From assembly GCA_001931875.2 (NCBI GenBank), contig MSJH02000830.1, forward strand, positions 62,001-126,000: DNA of 64,000 nt, read 5' to 3'. Position 1 is the first letter of the stretch. Each line of letters opens with the position of its first letter. Of this stretch, positions 38,093-52,635 are shown one piece after another. This DNA comes from Byssochlamys sp. IMV 00236. Its lineage: Eukaryota; Ascomycota; Eurotiomycetes; Eurotiales; Thermoascaceae. The notes beneath the pieces are model-generated. The model saw only the letters and a list, made by a program, of their open reading frames with translations. It was not told the origin of the DNA and did no database searches. The position numbers were made by a program, and so were the translations under genes.

Positions 38093-39691
38093 ATGATGGC
38101 CTCCCGCCGGGCGTTTGCGTGGCCAGCGGTGCTGGTGCTGGCCCTTGTTGTCGCAGGCACGTCAATGTTGAGCACGGCACGAGTATATATGATCGAGCAG
38201 GCATTATGTCGTACATATTACTCCACTGTCTCTCCTGACAAGATATTACCGAGCGGCAGTGTCCCTGAGCAAGAGTGTAAATTAGATCAAATTCAAGCAG
38301 ATGTCGCACTCTTATCGGGATGCTTTCATGTCAGCAGTTTGGTCCCAGGTGAGATTGCTCTTCTGTTTTGCCAGTTTGGTCTTGTTGTTTCTCACAGAAA
38401 TCTAGGGTTGATTGCTGCACCTCTGTATACACGTCTTGCCTCCATCCTTGGTAGTAGGACAGTCCTCCTTGTGAGTGTCTGTAGTTTTACGCTCGGAATC
38501 TGCTGTTTTGACTTAATCTGTATGTCAATCTCAATCAACTACAAGAGATCCATTGACTAATCCTAACTGAGGCTACTTCTACGGGGTCTTCAACATTTGG
38601 ATGATCCTGTTTACCAACCTGTTCGACCTGATCGGAGGAGGCACGACGCTGCAAAAAATCCTGCTCTACACTTATATTGCGCAAAATACCGATCAAGACT
38701 TACTGTATACATCTTTGGCTCTGTTCGTCATCTGATATATGACTAATATAAGGGATACAGGAGCAACCGGTTGTATTTTGTCAGCGTGCTACTTCTGGGG
38801 ACGTCGTTCTTCGCATCTTTCTTCGGTTCACAAACAATGAAAGCTAGCGCATGGTTGCCCCTGATGATTGGCACATTTCTCTGCGGCCTTACCATTCCGT
38901 GTGTCCTCTGCCTCCGTGGACAGACAAGGGAGAAATCAAAATACGATGAACTTCCTATGGACGACGTGAGTGGAACACCTGATGAACCGGACAGTGATGA
39001 AAACGAGCACGACGAGAAGTCTCCAGGGCTATGGAGTACCATATTCCGGGCTATGACGGTAGACCTTCTACTGTCCTTGTCCCCAGTCGCCGAAGCACTA
39101 AAAGACCCGTTGGCAAGAGTGATGATGCTTATTTTTCTCATAATCGATATCAGTATGGCGGTGCTGGTCACGTTCACTCAGTTTGCATCAGCACTCTCTC
39201 ATTGGAGTCTCGCGGACGTCAATGCTGTTACATCTTTCCACTTGGTAGTGAGCACCACAGCCCTCTTTGCCCTGCCAGTCCTGTCCAACTGGCTGGTTGG
39301 ATTACTGCATTCTACCAAACAGAGAGTAGACCTGTGGACCGCGTCATGGAGTACAGTTGCAAAAATCATCGGGATGGTTGGTATTGGACTTGCCCCGACG
39401 CAATGGATCTGCTTCGCGTCATTGATGATATATGCCCTTGGATATGGACTCCCAGATGCCCTTCGTTCGTTAGCAACCTGCGGGCTTGAGGACGAGAGAT
39501 CGATCCAGAGCCTGTATATGGGGATAGGTCTGGCGCAGGAAGTGGCAGGCCTTGTAGGAAGTCCCATTTGGACCACTATATTTTATGCCACTCTTGATGG
39601 CGATATTCCGCTGCCAAAGGGATCACATTTCTTGGCCGCTGCGTCCTTGTTAGGTATTGCTCTAGCTATAATGATTAGGGCACTGCATTAG
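38093..39691 (+). CDS. Major facilitator superfamily transporter (putative peptide-product exporter)
   Basis: Polytopic membrane protein of 477 residues in four exons (38093-38348, 38406-38519, 38572-38704, 38761-39691). Hydrophobic segments include VLVLALVVAGTSML near 14-27, TVLLVSVCSFTLGICCFDLI near 105-125 (its ends joined across an intron), FNIWMILFTNLFDLIGG, VLLLGTSFFASFFG and WLPLMIGTFLCGLTIPCVL. A central hydrophilic acidic loop (YDELPMDDVSGTPDEPDSDE) separates the halves. The second half has six predicted helices. The LYTRLASILGSRTVLL loop after helix 2-3 fits the MFS. The substrate cannot be read from sequence. Its place beside a repeat-peptide precursor and two UstYa-type proteins suggests export of the peptide product, as UstT-type transporters are thought to do. 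Confidence 0.85.
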
Positions 39692-40857: not shown

Positions 40858-41613
40858 CTAGTAAGTCTCCTTCCCCATCATAGTTCCATGATCATGATGG
40901 TCGTGCCCATGAGCTTTGGCAATCACAGTGCGATCAGAATGGAGCGCTACCCCAGCCTCAGTTACGATCTTATCCAACGGATCCCTCTTCAAAAACATCA
41001 TCTCGCAGTGATCCAAATGTGCCAGATTATTATACCGATGTTCAATGGTCGTCCCCTTTTCTGGAGCAAGAAACATCTTTTTCCAATAATAAGCACAATG
41101 AACCAGATGCCAATGATGCGTGGTGAAGAAATGCCCTCCCGTCTCAGGAAGCATGGCGACTTCGTGAAGAGTCATCGTCTTGGTTTTATTCTTGTCTGCG
41201 TAATATGGCCAGCTTCCATCAGGATTTGGGCCTGATTTCTCGAACTTGGCGATGAGATCGTCGTTTCGACAAGCGGGAGGTAGCCACGCCGCAGCGATAG
41301 AGTCGTATTTGCAGTTGTTCGAGAGGGCCTCGACAATGGTGTCGCCGCAATTGCAGGAGACTGTCCTTCGCGATTGGATCAAGGTATATGTTCTGAATCC
41401 CAGGTCAACGAAGCCGAAGGTCGCGAGGGAAACGAGCAGGAGTATTTTGATCCGCGAAGCAAAGGACTTTCTGGGAGGATTGAATTGATTGTGCCCCATT
41501 TCAGTATTGCAGTCGGTCTTGTGAGATTCTAGGCTCAGCTCAATGCTGTCCCTTTGGTGAAGATGCTCATACTTCATGGTATCTTGTTTTTGGAAGAGCC
41601 ATTTTGTCAACAT
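40858..41613 (-). CDS. UstYa-type (DUF3328-like) membrane oxidase, paired HxxHC motifs
   Basis: Single-exon protein of 251 residues with a cytosolic basic N-terminus, one membrane anchor at about 54-80 (RIKILLLVSLATFGFVDLGF) and a lumenal domain. The lumenal domain has HLVHC at 169-173 and HLDHC at 199-203, the two HxxHC motifs that define UstYa proteins, which catalyse oxidative cyclisation of fungal ribosomal peptides. Between anchor and motifs lie CNCGDTIVEALSNNCKYDSI, WLPPACRNDDL and GPNPDGSWPYYAD, shared by a divergent branch of the family common in fungi. The C-terminus is His-rich (HGHDHHDHG, 235-243). It lies about 1.2 kb downstream of the repeat precursor on the same strand. Family call is good; reaction is inferred. 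Confidence 0.8.
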   Translation of the reverse strand: MLTKWLFQKQDTMKYEHLHQRDSIELSLESHKTDCNTEMGHNQFNPPRKSFASRIKILLLVSLATFGFVDLGFRTYTLIQSRRTVSCNCGDTIVEALSNNCKYDSIAAAWLPPACRNDDLIAKFEKSGPNPDGSWPYYADKNKTKTMTLHEVAMLPETGGHFFTTHHWHLVHCAYYWKKMFLAPEKGTTIEHRYNNLAHLDHCEMMFLKRDPLDKIVTEAGVALHSDRTVIAKAHGHDHHDHGTMMGKETY

Positions 41614-42814
41614 AGCTGCTTATTATTTGATGGTTGGTGTATCACGGTTGAGATAGAAGTACTCGGTGCAACTACGACGACCCTACGGCAGAAATTTATC
41701 ACAGCATAGATTTGCCCTTTGGCTGGCTGGGGCCTCACCTCCCCTTCGTTTCACCTGGTTTATGTAAAATAAACTCACCAAGATGCGCATGCTGATCTTT
41801 TCACCGATATACTTAATGATGATACCTTGCATGAACAGGTTCATGCTGCATCCCGCACGCCATGCAGCCATAATGCAAAAGCCCAAAAGTTCATTGTACT
41901 ACGTAGTGACCACAAACATGGCTGGCTGAGAGTGGAGAGTTGTGGCTCCTATACAGAAGAGCTATATCGTGCAGAATAATACGCTAGTTGAATACCTACT
42001 CTAATGCTGTTCACGCTAATGCAACTAATAATACATGTCGGCAAGGGCTCTACTACTGTACGTACTACGTAGATGTAAACACTATAATAACCAACCCCGA
42101 AATATTGCCGCCCAGATCCCAATATATAAACTCTCTACTACGATGCCTAATACAGTGCAGGCCGGATTGAGGGGCAAGCGGTTATATACTATTGGCGCGA
42201 GGCTATTCGAGCAGAGGGGAGAATCCTCCTGTTTGGTCATGTCTGGATCTGGCATACTAAGAACTAAACTGAATTACGTATAGCTTCAAATCATTTAGCG
42301 ACAGTAAATGCGTGCCCACTGCAAATCATTTCTAGATATCCTACTTCACGCTAAAAATCCCTCGATGAGCTAGTGCCACTGAGAAAGTTAGTTACCAGCA
42401 ATATTGTTGGTCAGCTTCTTCAGTCAACAGCTCCAAGTTTCAGTGGCCTTTCGTACGTGCGCGGTTATACAAATTGAAACTACGCATAGTTCAGTATAAA
42501 ATGAGACGTTCATGGCTAGTACGTGATCCGTAATTGTAACTATAACAGAGTTTTCCCATTCTTGTATGTCATCGTAGACTAACTATGTGTATACTTCGTC
42601 ATAATCTGAAAAGATCAACTCGATTATCTCTGCTTTCCCATGGAGAACCCCACATCTAGGAAGGGCATACAAGCTGAGAGCTCCATATGCTAAAGTCAAG
42701 CAGAGATAAGACTAGGAAGCGGAGAAAGCAAGAGCACCAATCTCACGATCAGTCACATCGACACAGGCATTCCTTGAAGAAATGCAGCTCGAGCCAATCT
42801 GTCTCTCCATCCGT
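41614..42814. other. Intergenic region between UstYa-type gene and precursor
   Basis: About 1.2 kb of fairly AT-rich sequence. It has two copies of the palindrome CTACGTAG (41899-41906 and 42065-42072). No frame with protein-like features was found. Confidence 0.5.
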
Positions 42815-43380
42815 TTAGGGGTAGAACGGAATAGCCTCGTCGTCAGCGCTGCGCTTAGGATAGAATGGAATAGCTTCATCATCTGCGCTGCGCTTTGGGT
42901 AGAATGGGATGGCCTCGTCGTCCGCGCTGCGCTTTGGGTAGAATGGAATGGCTTCATCGTCTGCGCTGCGCTTAGGATAGAACGGAATGGCTTCGTCGTC
43001 CGCACTGCGCTTTGGGTAGAACGGAATGGCCTCATCATCAGCACTGCGTTTAGGATAGAACGTAATGGCTTCGTCGTCCGCACTGCGCTTTGGGTAGAAC
43101 GGAATGGCCTCATCATCAGCACTGCGTTTCGGGTAGAATGGAATGGCCTCGTCATCTGCACTGCGCTTAGGATAGAATGGAATAGCTTCATCGTCTGCGC
43201 TGCGCTTTGGGTAGAACGGAATGGCTTCGTCGTCTGCGCTAGCTACAAATTCGATATTATTTTGTCAGTATCAGGCATAGCAAATACGTCCTTGGAAGCA
43301 GAGCTGGCCATACCGATAGGAGCCGCCGAGATCAATGGAAGACCAACGGCCAGCAGGGAAAGTACAAATTTGAGCTGCAT
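42815..43380 (-). CDS. Secreted repeat peptide precursor (candidate RiPP/dikaritin precursor, UstA-like)
   Basis: 164 residues in two exons (complement 43380-43314 and 43242-42815). Exon 1 is a signal peptide: MQLKFVLSLLAVGLPLISAA, with likely cleavage after SAA. The 71-base intron has GTATGG, a TACTGAC branch site and TAG; reading through it meets a stop. Exon 2 encodes one Ala and then eleven tandem copies of SADDEAIPFYPKR. Copy 5 has Thr for Pro (AITFYP). Copy 11 stops after FYP. Ten Lys-Arg pairs are Kex2 sites, so the secretory pathway would release identical 13-mers. Acidic spacer, Tyr-containing hydrophobic core and KR spacing match UstA, PhomA and AprA precursors. A Kex2-processed secreted peptide without cyclisation is the alternative. 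Flanked by two UstYa-type genes. Confidence 0.88.
42818..43240 (-). repeat. Eleven tandem 39-base coding repeats
   Basis: Ten full 39-base units (43240 down to 42851) plus a 33-base final unit (42850-42818) inside the precursor gene. Units differ almost only at third codon positions. Units 4 and 6 are identical in DNA, and units 5 and 7 differ at two bases, which shows a past 78-base duplication. Confidence 0.95.
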
Positions 43381-44496
43381 TTTGCACTAAATACTTTCAA
43401 GTGTTGAAAGATACGGCGTCAAGTAGTTCTGGGCTTAGGTACGGAATGGACAAGAAGAACAATGTGATGGTGTTACTGTTCAAGGATCTGTAGCTGATTT
43501 TATAGTTCTACAGGTGTAGATGCAACTCTTTCACTTCTTCATATCGACCAAGTCAGCATACGGCTCCATTGGTGGTACACTAGGAAATGCCCACAGCGAC
43601 GGCTAGCTGAGAAAACTCGGTGAACGACGAGGCGTAGCCAGTTCTGGTCAATGTGCCTACATATCCTGCATATGTAGTACAAACTTGGATTCCATTCACA
43701 GCTGTCCAATGATAGCAATTATGGAACACGCTCGATGTCGCCATCTGTAAGGGAAACAGGCAAGACTTGGATTTCGTGCAAAACCTGCATATTCATTGAA
43801 GATCGAATGCTCTAGGATGTGGATCTGCTGCTGTTGAAGCACTCGATTTACCAATGTGTTATGTCCAGACAGTACTGTGCTGTATCAGCTACACTGATAT
43901 GTATCATGCCCATGCTCGGATGCTTGACATTGAGTGAGGAAATGATCCATAAAGGTAAATATGAGGCTGGAAGCAAACTTGAACTGGTCTTAAATTATGA
44001 GGGTTTGGGATTCAAGAACCACGATGTTCTCCATTTGAGGTTCTGTGGAAAGACCAGCAACTTTTGTTTACGCCCCATCTGGCCTACATACATAGAGTTT
44101 AAGCCAATGATGCATCCGCGCACGATCTGCGGCGATCTGTGAACTATCTAAAGATCTATTCATCTACTTCAGTGGTCCTCACAGCAAGCCACAGCCGGCT
44201 GCACGTTGGGAAACCCTTCAGCTGATACCAGTCGCTCTGATATACATAGGGACAGGAAGCGGCCTCTCCTCTAAGTCTGTCACCCCGCCTTTTCTCATAC
44301 CCCTTGCTTTCGGCGAGCAACCCCTCAGTCGGTATCAATCTAGCTATGCTGTGAATACTGAATACTAATTATACGTTACCTGAGCCGGTGACGTTGGGAG
44401 CGTGGCATTTCCTCCTGACTGCGAAACCTTGAATAAAACAAGCTCTCTGCCAGACTATTCTTTGCTGAGTATTCAAGTGAATCGTTTGAGCTCAAG
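43381..44496. promoter_or_regulatory. Divergent promoter region of precursor and second UstYa-type gene
   Basis: About 1.1 kb between the start codons of the precursor (-) and the second UstYa-type gene (+), so it should hold both promoters. CATATGTAGTA at 43669-43679 is also found ahead of the MFS transporter. A frame at 43819-44142 (+) would encode 107 residues without recognisable features and is not accepted. Confidence 0.5.
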
Positions 44497-45505
44497 ATGA
44501 TGGCCCTGGGTGAATCTCAATTTCATCAGGCCCCGGATGACAGATCTGGCAATTGGCGTGAGAGTATCGATGAGAAAGAGCCAGAGCAACCTTTACTGAC
44601 TGTCCCCGGCAATTCGGTACACGACACAGAGCACAGCCCTACGGGCTGTCTGCAATGGCAGAGGCGCGATTGGGGACTCTGGCTCACTATCTTGAATATC
44701 TCGGTCTGGCTGTTAACGATTTTCTTCATCTTCTCGCCGTTTGCTAGCCGTGCTTGCCTCCGACACCTGAGTGACCAAGAGAAATGGAAAGCCGTCTCTT
44801 ATTATGGTAAGACCACCAAATACTATATATCTATATATATTCTTCAATCATAGGAAATAATCTAACGACATTTCAGCCCCCGTTTTTGACCGTTTTGAGA
44901 TCCCTCGCATAGTCCAAACGACCAACGGGTCACTATATGATACATACCCACCCTCGATCCTGCGAGTTCCCAAGGGACCTGAGGCAGACGCAGAATGGTT
45001 TCGGATAGGAACTGGTGTTTTCCCACTCATAATCTCATCAACTGAGATCCGCAAACTGGGCAAAGACCCCTCTGTGGCTGTGAAAATTCCACCAGAACAC
45101 GGATACGGCGATGATGCGTACCTGGCGCAAACTGAAGTGTTCCACCTTCTCCATTGTCTCGATATGCTTCGCAAGGAGATCTCCTACGAACATTATTACT
45201 TCCCGAAGTTCGGAAACAATCCCGATGCTCAGCACCAGGCTCATATCGGACATTGCATAGACTTGCTTGCACAGTCGATTAAGTGTTCAAGTAGCGTCGA
45301 TGTCATCTTGTTCAACTGGGTCGAGGGCTGGAATCAGCCATTTCCAGACTTTAAAAACAGGCATGTTTGTCGGGACTTCGAGGCACTTCTTGACTATGTC
45401 AATGACCATTCTGTTCCGGTGGAAGTGTTTCAAGCCATGAAGGAACCGCCCGAAGGTTATGTTCGTTTACCAGAGCCAGCTCCCGTGAACAGTGAGGGCG
45501 CATAA
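44497..45505 (+). CDS. UstYa-type (DUF3328) membrane oxidase, paired HxxHC motifs
   Basis: 312 residues in two exons (44497-44806 and 44877-45505). A hydrophilic cytosolic N-terminus of about 58 residues precedes a single membrane anchor (WGLWLTILNISVWLLTIFFI, about 59-80). The lumenal domain shows the classical DUF3328 pattern: FDRFEIPRIVQ..., ILRVPKGPEADAEWFRIGTG, YLAQTEVFHLLHCLDMLRK with the first HxxHC at 193-197, and HQAHIGHCIDLLAQSIKC with the second at 226-230. VILFNWVEGWNQPFPDFKNR and CRDFEALLDYV follow, as in UstYa and UstYb. In ustiloxin, phomopsin and asperipin pathways such proteins install the Tyr ether cross-link. It is divergent from the precursor gene. This is the clearest UstYa homologue of the two. 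Confidence 0.92.
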
Positions 45506-51804: not shown

Positions 51805-52635
51805 TCATCTTGGAGGCGCATCAGTAAGTGGCACATAGCTAACCGCAAAGACCTTCTCCTTATGTACGGAGCCATCAGCCTTCTTATCTACGACCCAGAT
51901 ATACTGACCACCGCCCAAACCGAGGGCACTCAGCGCCGCTCCACCACCTTCCTCTGACTCTACAGGAATGAACAGACGTCCCGGGGCACGCAACTGCTCC
52001 ACGAGAACAGGATGGAGCTTATCAGCCGCGGCCCCGACATGGATAGCATCGTAAGGCGCATCTTCAGGCCAACCTTTGCGTCCGTCTCCAGTGACGAACT
52101 TGACTTTTCCCGACTCGAGCATTTTACGGCCCTCGGGGGATTTGCTCATGTTCTTCTTCGCGAGGTCGACGAGTTCTTGGATGTGATCGATTCCAACGAC
52201 GTAGCCGTCCTTGCCGGTAGATGGACCATCGATCAGATTCGCGAATACGTGAGTGAGGTAGCCTGATCCGGAGCCAATGTCCAGGACACGAGAGCCGGGA
52301 TGGAGGAAATCGATGAGATACTCGCAGGCATGGCCATGCATATGGGGAGCGGAGATGGTGGCGCTGTATCCGATCGGCTGAGGGGAGTCGGAGTATGGGG
52401 CGGAGGGCGCATAATGAGCGCGGTCCACCTTGACAATTGGACGATTAGCTTTATTGGTACTGTAAAGTGAAGCTGTGTGATAGCTTTACAACCGGATGTA
52501 AAGTATAATGACAGCGGTGAAAGAAATACTTACGCCTAGCATGGCATTCTTTACTCGTTCATTCTTGATGAGACCTGCCTCGAACAGGTTCTCGATCAGT
52601 TCGCTGTTTGTTTGTCCAGAACAATACCACGCCAT
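51805..52635 (-). CDS. Protein-L-isoaspartate O-methyltransferase
   Basis: Repairs isoaspartyl damage in proteins using S-adenosylmethionine. Two exons (complement 52635-52534 and 52428-51805), 241 residues. It starts MAWYCSGQTNSELIENLFEA. Then come ERVKNAMLG and, across the intron, VDRAHYAP, as in PCMT enzymes. The cofactor motif I is SRVLDIGSGSGYLTHVFANL, YDAIHVGAAADKLHPVLVEQ is post-I/II, and PGRLFIPV is motif III. IGYSATISAPHMHGHACEYL is the substrate-side signature. The first residues of the 52486-52743 frame upstream of MAWYC are not family-like, so the internal ATG at 52635 is used. Confidence 0.94.

Follow-up and report, generated by a model that had tools for sequence, protein, structure and literature searches.

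A probable dikaritin-type gene cluster with an EAIPFY repeat precursor in Byssochlamys sp. IMV 00236

The 64,000-nucleotide stretch of Byssochlamys sp. IMV 00236 DNA analysed here (the window) probably carries a dikaritin-type cluster, in which a repeat precursor would be cut by Kex2 and its EAIPFY core oxidised by a UstYa-family enzyme, with a cross-link at the tyrosine as the most likely result. The evidence lies in the anatomy of the precursor gene, the selection on its repeats, the oxidase gene that adjoins it, the linkage of the two genes in a second species and the core common to its relatives.

The precursor gene lies on the minus strand, with its ATG at 43380 and the end of its stop codon at 42815, which agrees with the coordinates 42815..43380 of the original prediction. 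Its parts are as follows:

43314..43380, minus strand: exon 1, start codon and signal-peptide-like leader MQLKFVLSLLAVGLPLISAAPI
43243..43313, minus strand: inferred intron of 71 nt, GTATGG...TTTGTAG, from reading frame and splice signals
42815..43242, minus strand: exon 2, repeat array and stop codon
42818..43240, minus strand: eleven tandem units, ten of SADDEAIPFYP and one (unit 5) of SADDEAITFYP

The intron was chosen by inference from 16 frame-compatible candidates and holds a branch-like CTGAC site. Its excision gives a precursor of 164 aa with eleven units, of which only the last one in the array of 39-bp units is without a following KR, so that the predicted KR after ten of the eleven units is found in the translation. 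The predicted eleven copies of SADDEAIPFYP are exact in ten cases and altered in unit 5. The signal peptide was called by eye and from the leader pattern MQ[LI][KR]-x5-LA-x-GLPL-x2-A-x-P, which the precursor has in common with three relatives described below (P0001, P0048 and P0051). Kex2-processed repeat proteins (KEPs) have been defined by at least three tandem repeats of at least eight residues between Kex2 sites (PMC7329392), and the precursor has eleven repeats of 11 residues.

Tandem Repeats Finder scores the array at 522 for a 39-bp period and at 580 for a 78-bp period, while 50 first-order shuffles of the window sequence reach 66 at best. The higher score of the longer period suggests that the array grew by duplication of two units at a time. 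Variable columns make up 12 of the 39 in the unit, 11 of them at codon position 3 and one at position 1; the probability of at least 11 of 12 falling at position 3 is about 5 in 100,000 if each column is given a chance of 1/3 and the units, which are not independent, are treated as if they were. Codon differences between pairs of units comprise 299 synonymous and 10 non-synonymous ones, all of the latter arising from the single P-to-T change in unit 5. The concentration of variable columns at third codon positions indicates that the precursor peptide is under selection and has been maintained, and this pattern together with the shuffle scores rules out the array as a product of chance. Codon usage alone would not call the array coding, since its codon log-odds of -0.06 lie below those of all ten training genes (0.041 to 0.181). 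An open reading frame on the opposite strand (42716-43390, plus) is taken as a by-product of the repeat. The pattern IP[FY][YC] occurs ten times within the array in the six-frame translation of the window and once elsewhere, there with Cys.

A DUF3328 gene had been proposed as the neighbour to look for beside such a precursor, and one is present. The UstYa (DUF3328) gene at 44497-45505 on the plus strand is divergent from the precursor gene, with the two start codons 1.1 kb apart:

44497..44806, plus strand: UstYa-family oxidase exon 1, cytosolic-side N-terminus and transmembrane helix
44807..44876, plus strand: inferred UstYa intron, GTAAGA...TTTCAG
44877..45505, plus strand: UstYa-family oxidase exon 2, HLLHC and HIGHC motifs, PF11807 with E 6.1e-53

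The protein has 312 residues. It is hydrophobic in a segment around residues 61-79, and its HxxHC motifs lie at residues 193 and 226. The residues H193, H196, C197, H226, H229 and C230 are invariant in an alignment of 18 homologue rows. An AlphaFold2 model built from 38 rows (mean pLDDT 71, pTM 0.55) places both motifs in predicted helices (190-205 and 221-241). This agrees with the description of the copper site in CctR, a DUF3328 protein reported as a membrane-bound, dimeric, oxygen-using binuclear copper enzyme, in which HxxHC(x)nHxxHC holds the copper and the catalytic part lies in the organelle lumen (PMC12435403). The UstYa profile gave 0 matches to PDB sequences. Against PDB folds the model gave 85 matches with E up to 10, none of which reached 0.001. 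A 2025 JACS paper deals, by its title, with a DUF3328 macrocyclase that depends on copper.

The genome (47.4 Mb, 840 contigs) contains 12 PF11807 matches in only 7 places, and a random site would therefore fall within 5 kb of such a place with a probability of about 0.15%. Dikaritins have been defined by an adjoining DUF3328/UstYa protein with two HxxHC motifs (PMC12048977), and a protein of this description adjoins the precursor. A 2020 survey found DUF3328 genes most often in the position that adjoins a repeat-precursor gene, and Tyr in 65.6% of the repeats near DUF3328 genes (PMC7329392). Cyclisation of the ustiloxin and asperipin-2a peptides needs UstYa homologues (PMC6514808, PMC10512285).

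Homologues of the two genes are linked in a second species. We searched annotated proteins within a limited range of lengths, and scored at most 8000 candidates in the searches with precursors. The first homologue search with the precursor returned one match, P0001 (AJ80_09370) of Polytolypa hystricis, whose units read VIPFYE-KR, AIPFYP-KR and AIPFCP-KR, the last with Cys in place of Tyr. The search with UstYa returned 46 proteins, among them P. hystricis AJ80_09369; the locus tags of the two are consecutive, the strain is the same and both contig sizes are 33158. A profile of the two precursors then picked out seven of 8000 scored candidates at a limit of E 10:

P0001, Polytolypa hystricis
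P0048, Aspergillus steynii
P0049, Cadophora sp.
P0050 (JGI)
P0051, A. coremiiformis
P0052, Seiridium unicorne (E 0.0019, weak)
P0053 (E 0.83, doubtful)

Four further genera thus include named members with precursors of the (E)AIP[FY]Y-KR type, one of the matches being weak. The window precursor and its seven relatives contain 37 unit-like stretches, of which 23 are distinct within species. Among these 23, the I and the P are each present in 22, F or Y in 23 and the Y after it in 22. In 19 of them E stands two residues ahead of I, in 20 I is preceded by A, and in 15 Pro follows Tyr; the counts include the weak P0052 and P0053, and conservation is overstated because the counting pattern by itself calls for most of IP[FY]Y. 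The relatives also have core words in common with the queries, those of P0048 (IPYY) being only DEAIP, SEAIP and YPKRS. By this comparison of units, the conserved core stretch is E-A-I-P-[FY]-Y and the following proline appears dispensable, since Cadophora units read EAIPFY-KR or EAIPFY-KKR, with Tyr leading straight to KR or KKR. The core had been predicted in or near A-I-P-F-Y-P, and the part that holds is (E)AIP[FY]Y; the final proline is not required.

The UstYa link was not seen in A. steynii, where the UstYa relative (P0040) has a locus tag distant from that of P0048 and a contig of different size. Among the annotated proteins of the limited length searched, several Aspergillus, Colletotrichum and other species yielded a UstYa relative but no such precursor. 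One UstYa homologue, P0042 of Colletotrichum scovillei, is named 'dopa 4' and annotated with both PF08883 and PF11807; it is a fusion or a merged gene model.

A second protein with two HxxHC motifs is encoded downstream of the precursor gene on the same strand:

40858..41613, minus strand: second double-HxxHC (HLVHC, HLDHC) protein with a single transmembrane segment, UstY-like by motif

HLVHC is at residue 169, HLDHC at 199 and a hydrophobic segment at 55-73, so the protein has the HxxHC(x)nHxxHC motif and single transmembrane helix of the UstYa family. It has no Pfam match up to E 10, nothing in NCBIfam and only two chance-level matches in the PDB (E 0.58 and 0.66). Comparison with UstYa by hhalign, using a two-sequence profile, brings both HxxHC motifs into register at a probability of 1.8% and P 0.028, which is not significant, and we therefore call the protein UstY-like by motif only. 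Its structure model, with a pLDDT of 37, is unusable, and the genome holds no second copy at E 0.01. Over 141 aa it is 75% identical to the C-terminal part of P0048 (P170DRAFT_445064), whose N-terminal part consists of a leader and EAIPYYPKR-type units. Annotation has probably joined two neighbouring genes in the P0048 model, a real precursor-enzyme fusion being conceivable; the double-HxxHC part of the model is without the transmembrane segment. The order and strand from precursor to double-HxxHC part are the same in A. steynii as in the window. The protein may represent a family that domain-based cluster finders overlook. A second HxxHC family without a Pfam match, tied to this precursor type in two genera, would permit a test of whether DUF3328-like proteins act as mixed pairs.

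Further from the precursor is a gene for a possible transporter:

38093..39691, plus strand: multi-helix membrane protein of 477 aa, possible transporter, from a splice model and hydrophobic segments
38093-38348, 38406-38519, 38572-38704 and 38761-39691, plus strand: four exons of this model

The protein is a possible transporter by its appearance, and it gave no match in Pfam, NCBIfam or the PDB. A relative of 26% identity is encoded on contig G000:C635 of the genome and likewise has no significant Pfam match. The gene may be counted as a candidate member of the cluster only. The left flank contains a DEAD helicase with its C-terminal domain, and the right flank contains mitochondrial carrier, release factor, TPR and DnaJ domains (Pfam), beyond which lies a PCMT-type protein methyltransferase (51805-52485). 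The Pfam scan took in 40 of the 143 listed window ORFs, unspliced except for the transporter-like model. Peptide-pathway tyrosinase, methyltransferase and peptidase families were absent from the stretches scanned between 34.3 and 50.8 kb (part of the ORFs). An older definition of dikaritin clusters looks for a tyrosinase, methyltransferase, peptidase or similar enzyme, which these scanned stretches do not show; functional dikaritin clusters without some of those enzymes have been reported (PMC12048977).

The six other UstYa places of the genome were examined over 9.9 kb each. A strict repeat-precursor script found none there, and a looser one found KR-repeat ORFs with other cores at two of the six, which suggests that the genome employs this type of pathway more than once. 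One precursor-like KR-repeat ORF lies near two UstYa matches (L016, G000:C802:77500-87400, minus strand, about 2892-2665) and has three units such as TEYAYIAVDSDAEV-KRR and AEYAYFALDSDTEV-KRR. The other is a KR-rich ORF with a leader-like stretch between two UstYa matches (L017, G000:C810:168600-178500, minus strand, 4914-4171), with imperfect units such as DPANDLIEYYIDG, DPENDLVVFYIPEE and DSENELVKFYVG. The closest database match to the UstYa beside the precursor is a protein of Paecilomyces variotii with 97% identity, by which the organism is probably a Paecilomyces. The genome of P. variotii is roughly 30 Mb in size. At 47.4 Mb the present assembly is larger, and it could represent a different species or a hybrid, or be of mixed origin.

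The adjoining UstYa gene, the consecutive tags in P. hystricis and the double-HxxHC link in A. steynii together support the original prediction of a ribosomal peptide that is processed by Kex2 and modified by UstYa. The steps of processing, chemistry and transport set out next are all inferred. The precursor would enter the secretory pathway, where Kex2 would cut after each KR and Kex1-like trimming would take the KR off, releasing up to eleven copies of SADDEAIPFYP per chain, one of them with Thr. The membrane-anchored UstYa would form a binuclear copper site from its two HxxHC motifs and, possibly with the second HxxHC protein, would oxidise the conserved EAIPFY within the lumen, most probably to give a side-chain cross-link from Tyr to an upstream residue, with Ile as the first candidate. 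Peptidases would then remove the acidic part, and the product may be transported by the multi-helix protein. By analogy with known cyclised peptides, the Tyr of the EAIPFY core is probably cross-linked, and its joining to Ile is deemed possible because epichloecyclins have Ile before Tyr and victorin has a C-terminal Phe joined to an internal Leu. As ten of the eleven units are identical, one main product is predicted. A more specific proposal is tentative and, in our estimate, may well prove wrong: that two copper oxidases, UstYa and a member of the separate HxxHC family, together form a small ring through side chains of IPFY, in a peptide class found in several classes of Ascomycota, with a C-terminal aromatic donor and no tyrosinase.

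The next reading is unlikely but deserves weighing, namely that UstYa hydroxylates, desaturates or otherwise oxidises the core and leaves the secreted peptide linear. DUF3328 members have been implicated in hydroxylation and halogenation besides macrocyclization (PMC12435403), desaturation of residues has been reported for UstYa homologues in the phomopsin pathway (PMC10512285), and the P. hystricis unit with Cys has no Tyr to link. However, Tyr occupies its place in 22 of the 23 distinct units from eight precursors, as expected of a cross-link donor (the counting pattern favours this figure), and the known UstYa-linked repeat peptides are mostly cyclised via an aromatic side chain (PMC6514808, PMC9233826).

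It is very improbable that the product is an unmodified linear pheromone or hormone freed by Kex2, Kex1 and perhaps Ste13, with UstYa as an unrelated neighbour. Kex2-processed repeats do yield linear pheromones too, and for 78% of the surveyed repeat precursors there is no DUF3328 gene in the vicinity (PMC7329392). Such a gene is also missing near annotated mating factors and pheromones, with three exceptions (same source), whereas here UstYa adjoins the precursor and its P. hystricis counterpart carries the consecutive locus tag; the alpha-type pheromone pattern, with no DUF3328 gene nearby, is thus not what the locus presents. The Ste13 signature consists of XA or XP pairs after KR (PMC6339444). 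The unit does have SA, an X-Ala pair, directly after KR, but DD then interrupts the series, and the relatives show AE, SE or DE in place of SA. A silent or decaying relic, to which the lack of a P. variotii precursor among the annotated proteins searched might point, is hardly credible for a locus with eleven intact units that differ almost only silently, an intact start and stop, plausible splice sites and an intact oxidase with conserved motifs.

The dikaritin-type reading would add to a small group, as a 2022 review lists only five reported dikaritins (PMC10512285), set beside 838 types of fungal repeat precursor predicted in the 2020 survey (PMC7329392). The words IPFYP, AIPFYP, EAIPFY and IPFYPKR matched only a yeast-promoter paper in the literature searched, which was available in part. 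The core is absent from the motifs named in the excerpts of a survey of 250 secretomes (PMC6339444), and the available main text of PMC7329392 contains no Paecilomyces, Byssochlamys, Polytolypa, Onygenales or 'IPFY'. In keeping with the original prediction, no described product with an EAIPFY-type core was found in this literature, a search whose scope ended at the supplementary tables of the surveys, which may list the precursor. With a compact cluster and a core found in several genera, matching of gene to product should be simple.

Among the known systems, asperipin-2a of Aspergillus flavus (aprA, aprY, aprT, aprR) resembles the present locus in its small cluster, repeat precursor with Kex2 sites, UstYa-type oxidase and transporter, and in having no tyrosinase among its four genes (PMC6514808). 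It differs in its core, FYYTGY against EAIPFY(P) here; moreover, the present locus shows no reductase and has a second HxxHC protein, and its transporter-like protein belongs to no recognised family. The ustiloxins and phomopsins also have a signal peptide, many KR-separated repeats and UstYa-type oxidases (PMC6514808, PMC10512285), and two HxxHC proteins if the 40858-41613 protein is counted. However, their Tyr is at the N-terminal end of the core, in an EDYXI motif (PMC6339444), and their clusters have a tyrosinase and a methyltransferase (PMC6514808), neither of which is in the stretches scanned here. The I-P-F order had been thought to recall phomopsin, but the likeness is weak, and a phomopsin-like reading was dropped on account of the final position of Tyr in the present core. 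The epichloecyclins of Epichloe (GigA) have a repeat precursor, Kex2 sites and Ile before Tyr in the core, with a described Ile-Tyr cross-link (PMC9233826); their cores are nonapeptides of other sequence, and the cross-link here is a prediction. In victorin of Cochliobolus victoriae an aromatic residue on the C-terminal side is joined to an upstream aliphatic one, Phe to Leu (PMC9233826), although the donor there is Phe, the product is chlorinated and the cluster encodes peptidases, none of which is seen here. In its order of aliphatic before aromatic residue, the present core is closer to the epichloecyclins and victorin than to phomopsin (PMC9233826).
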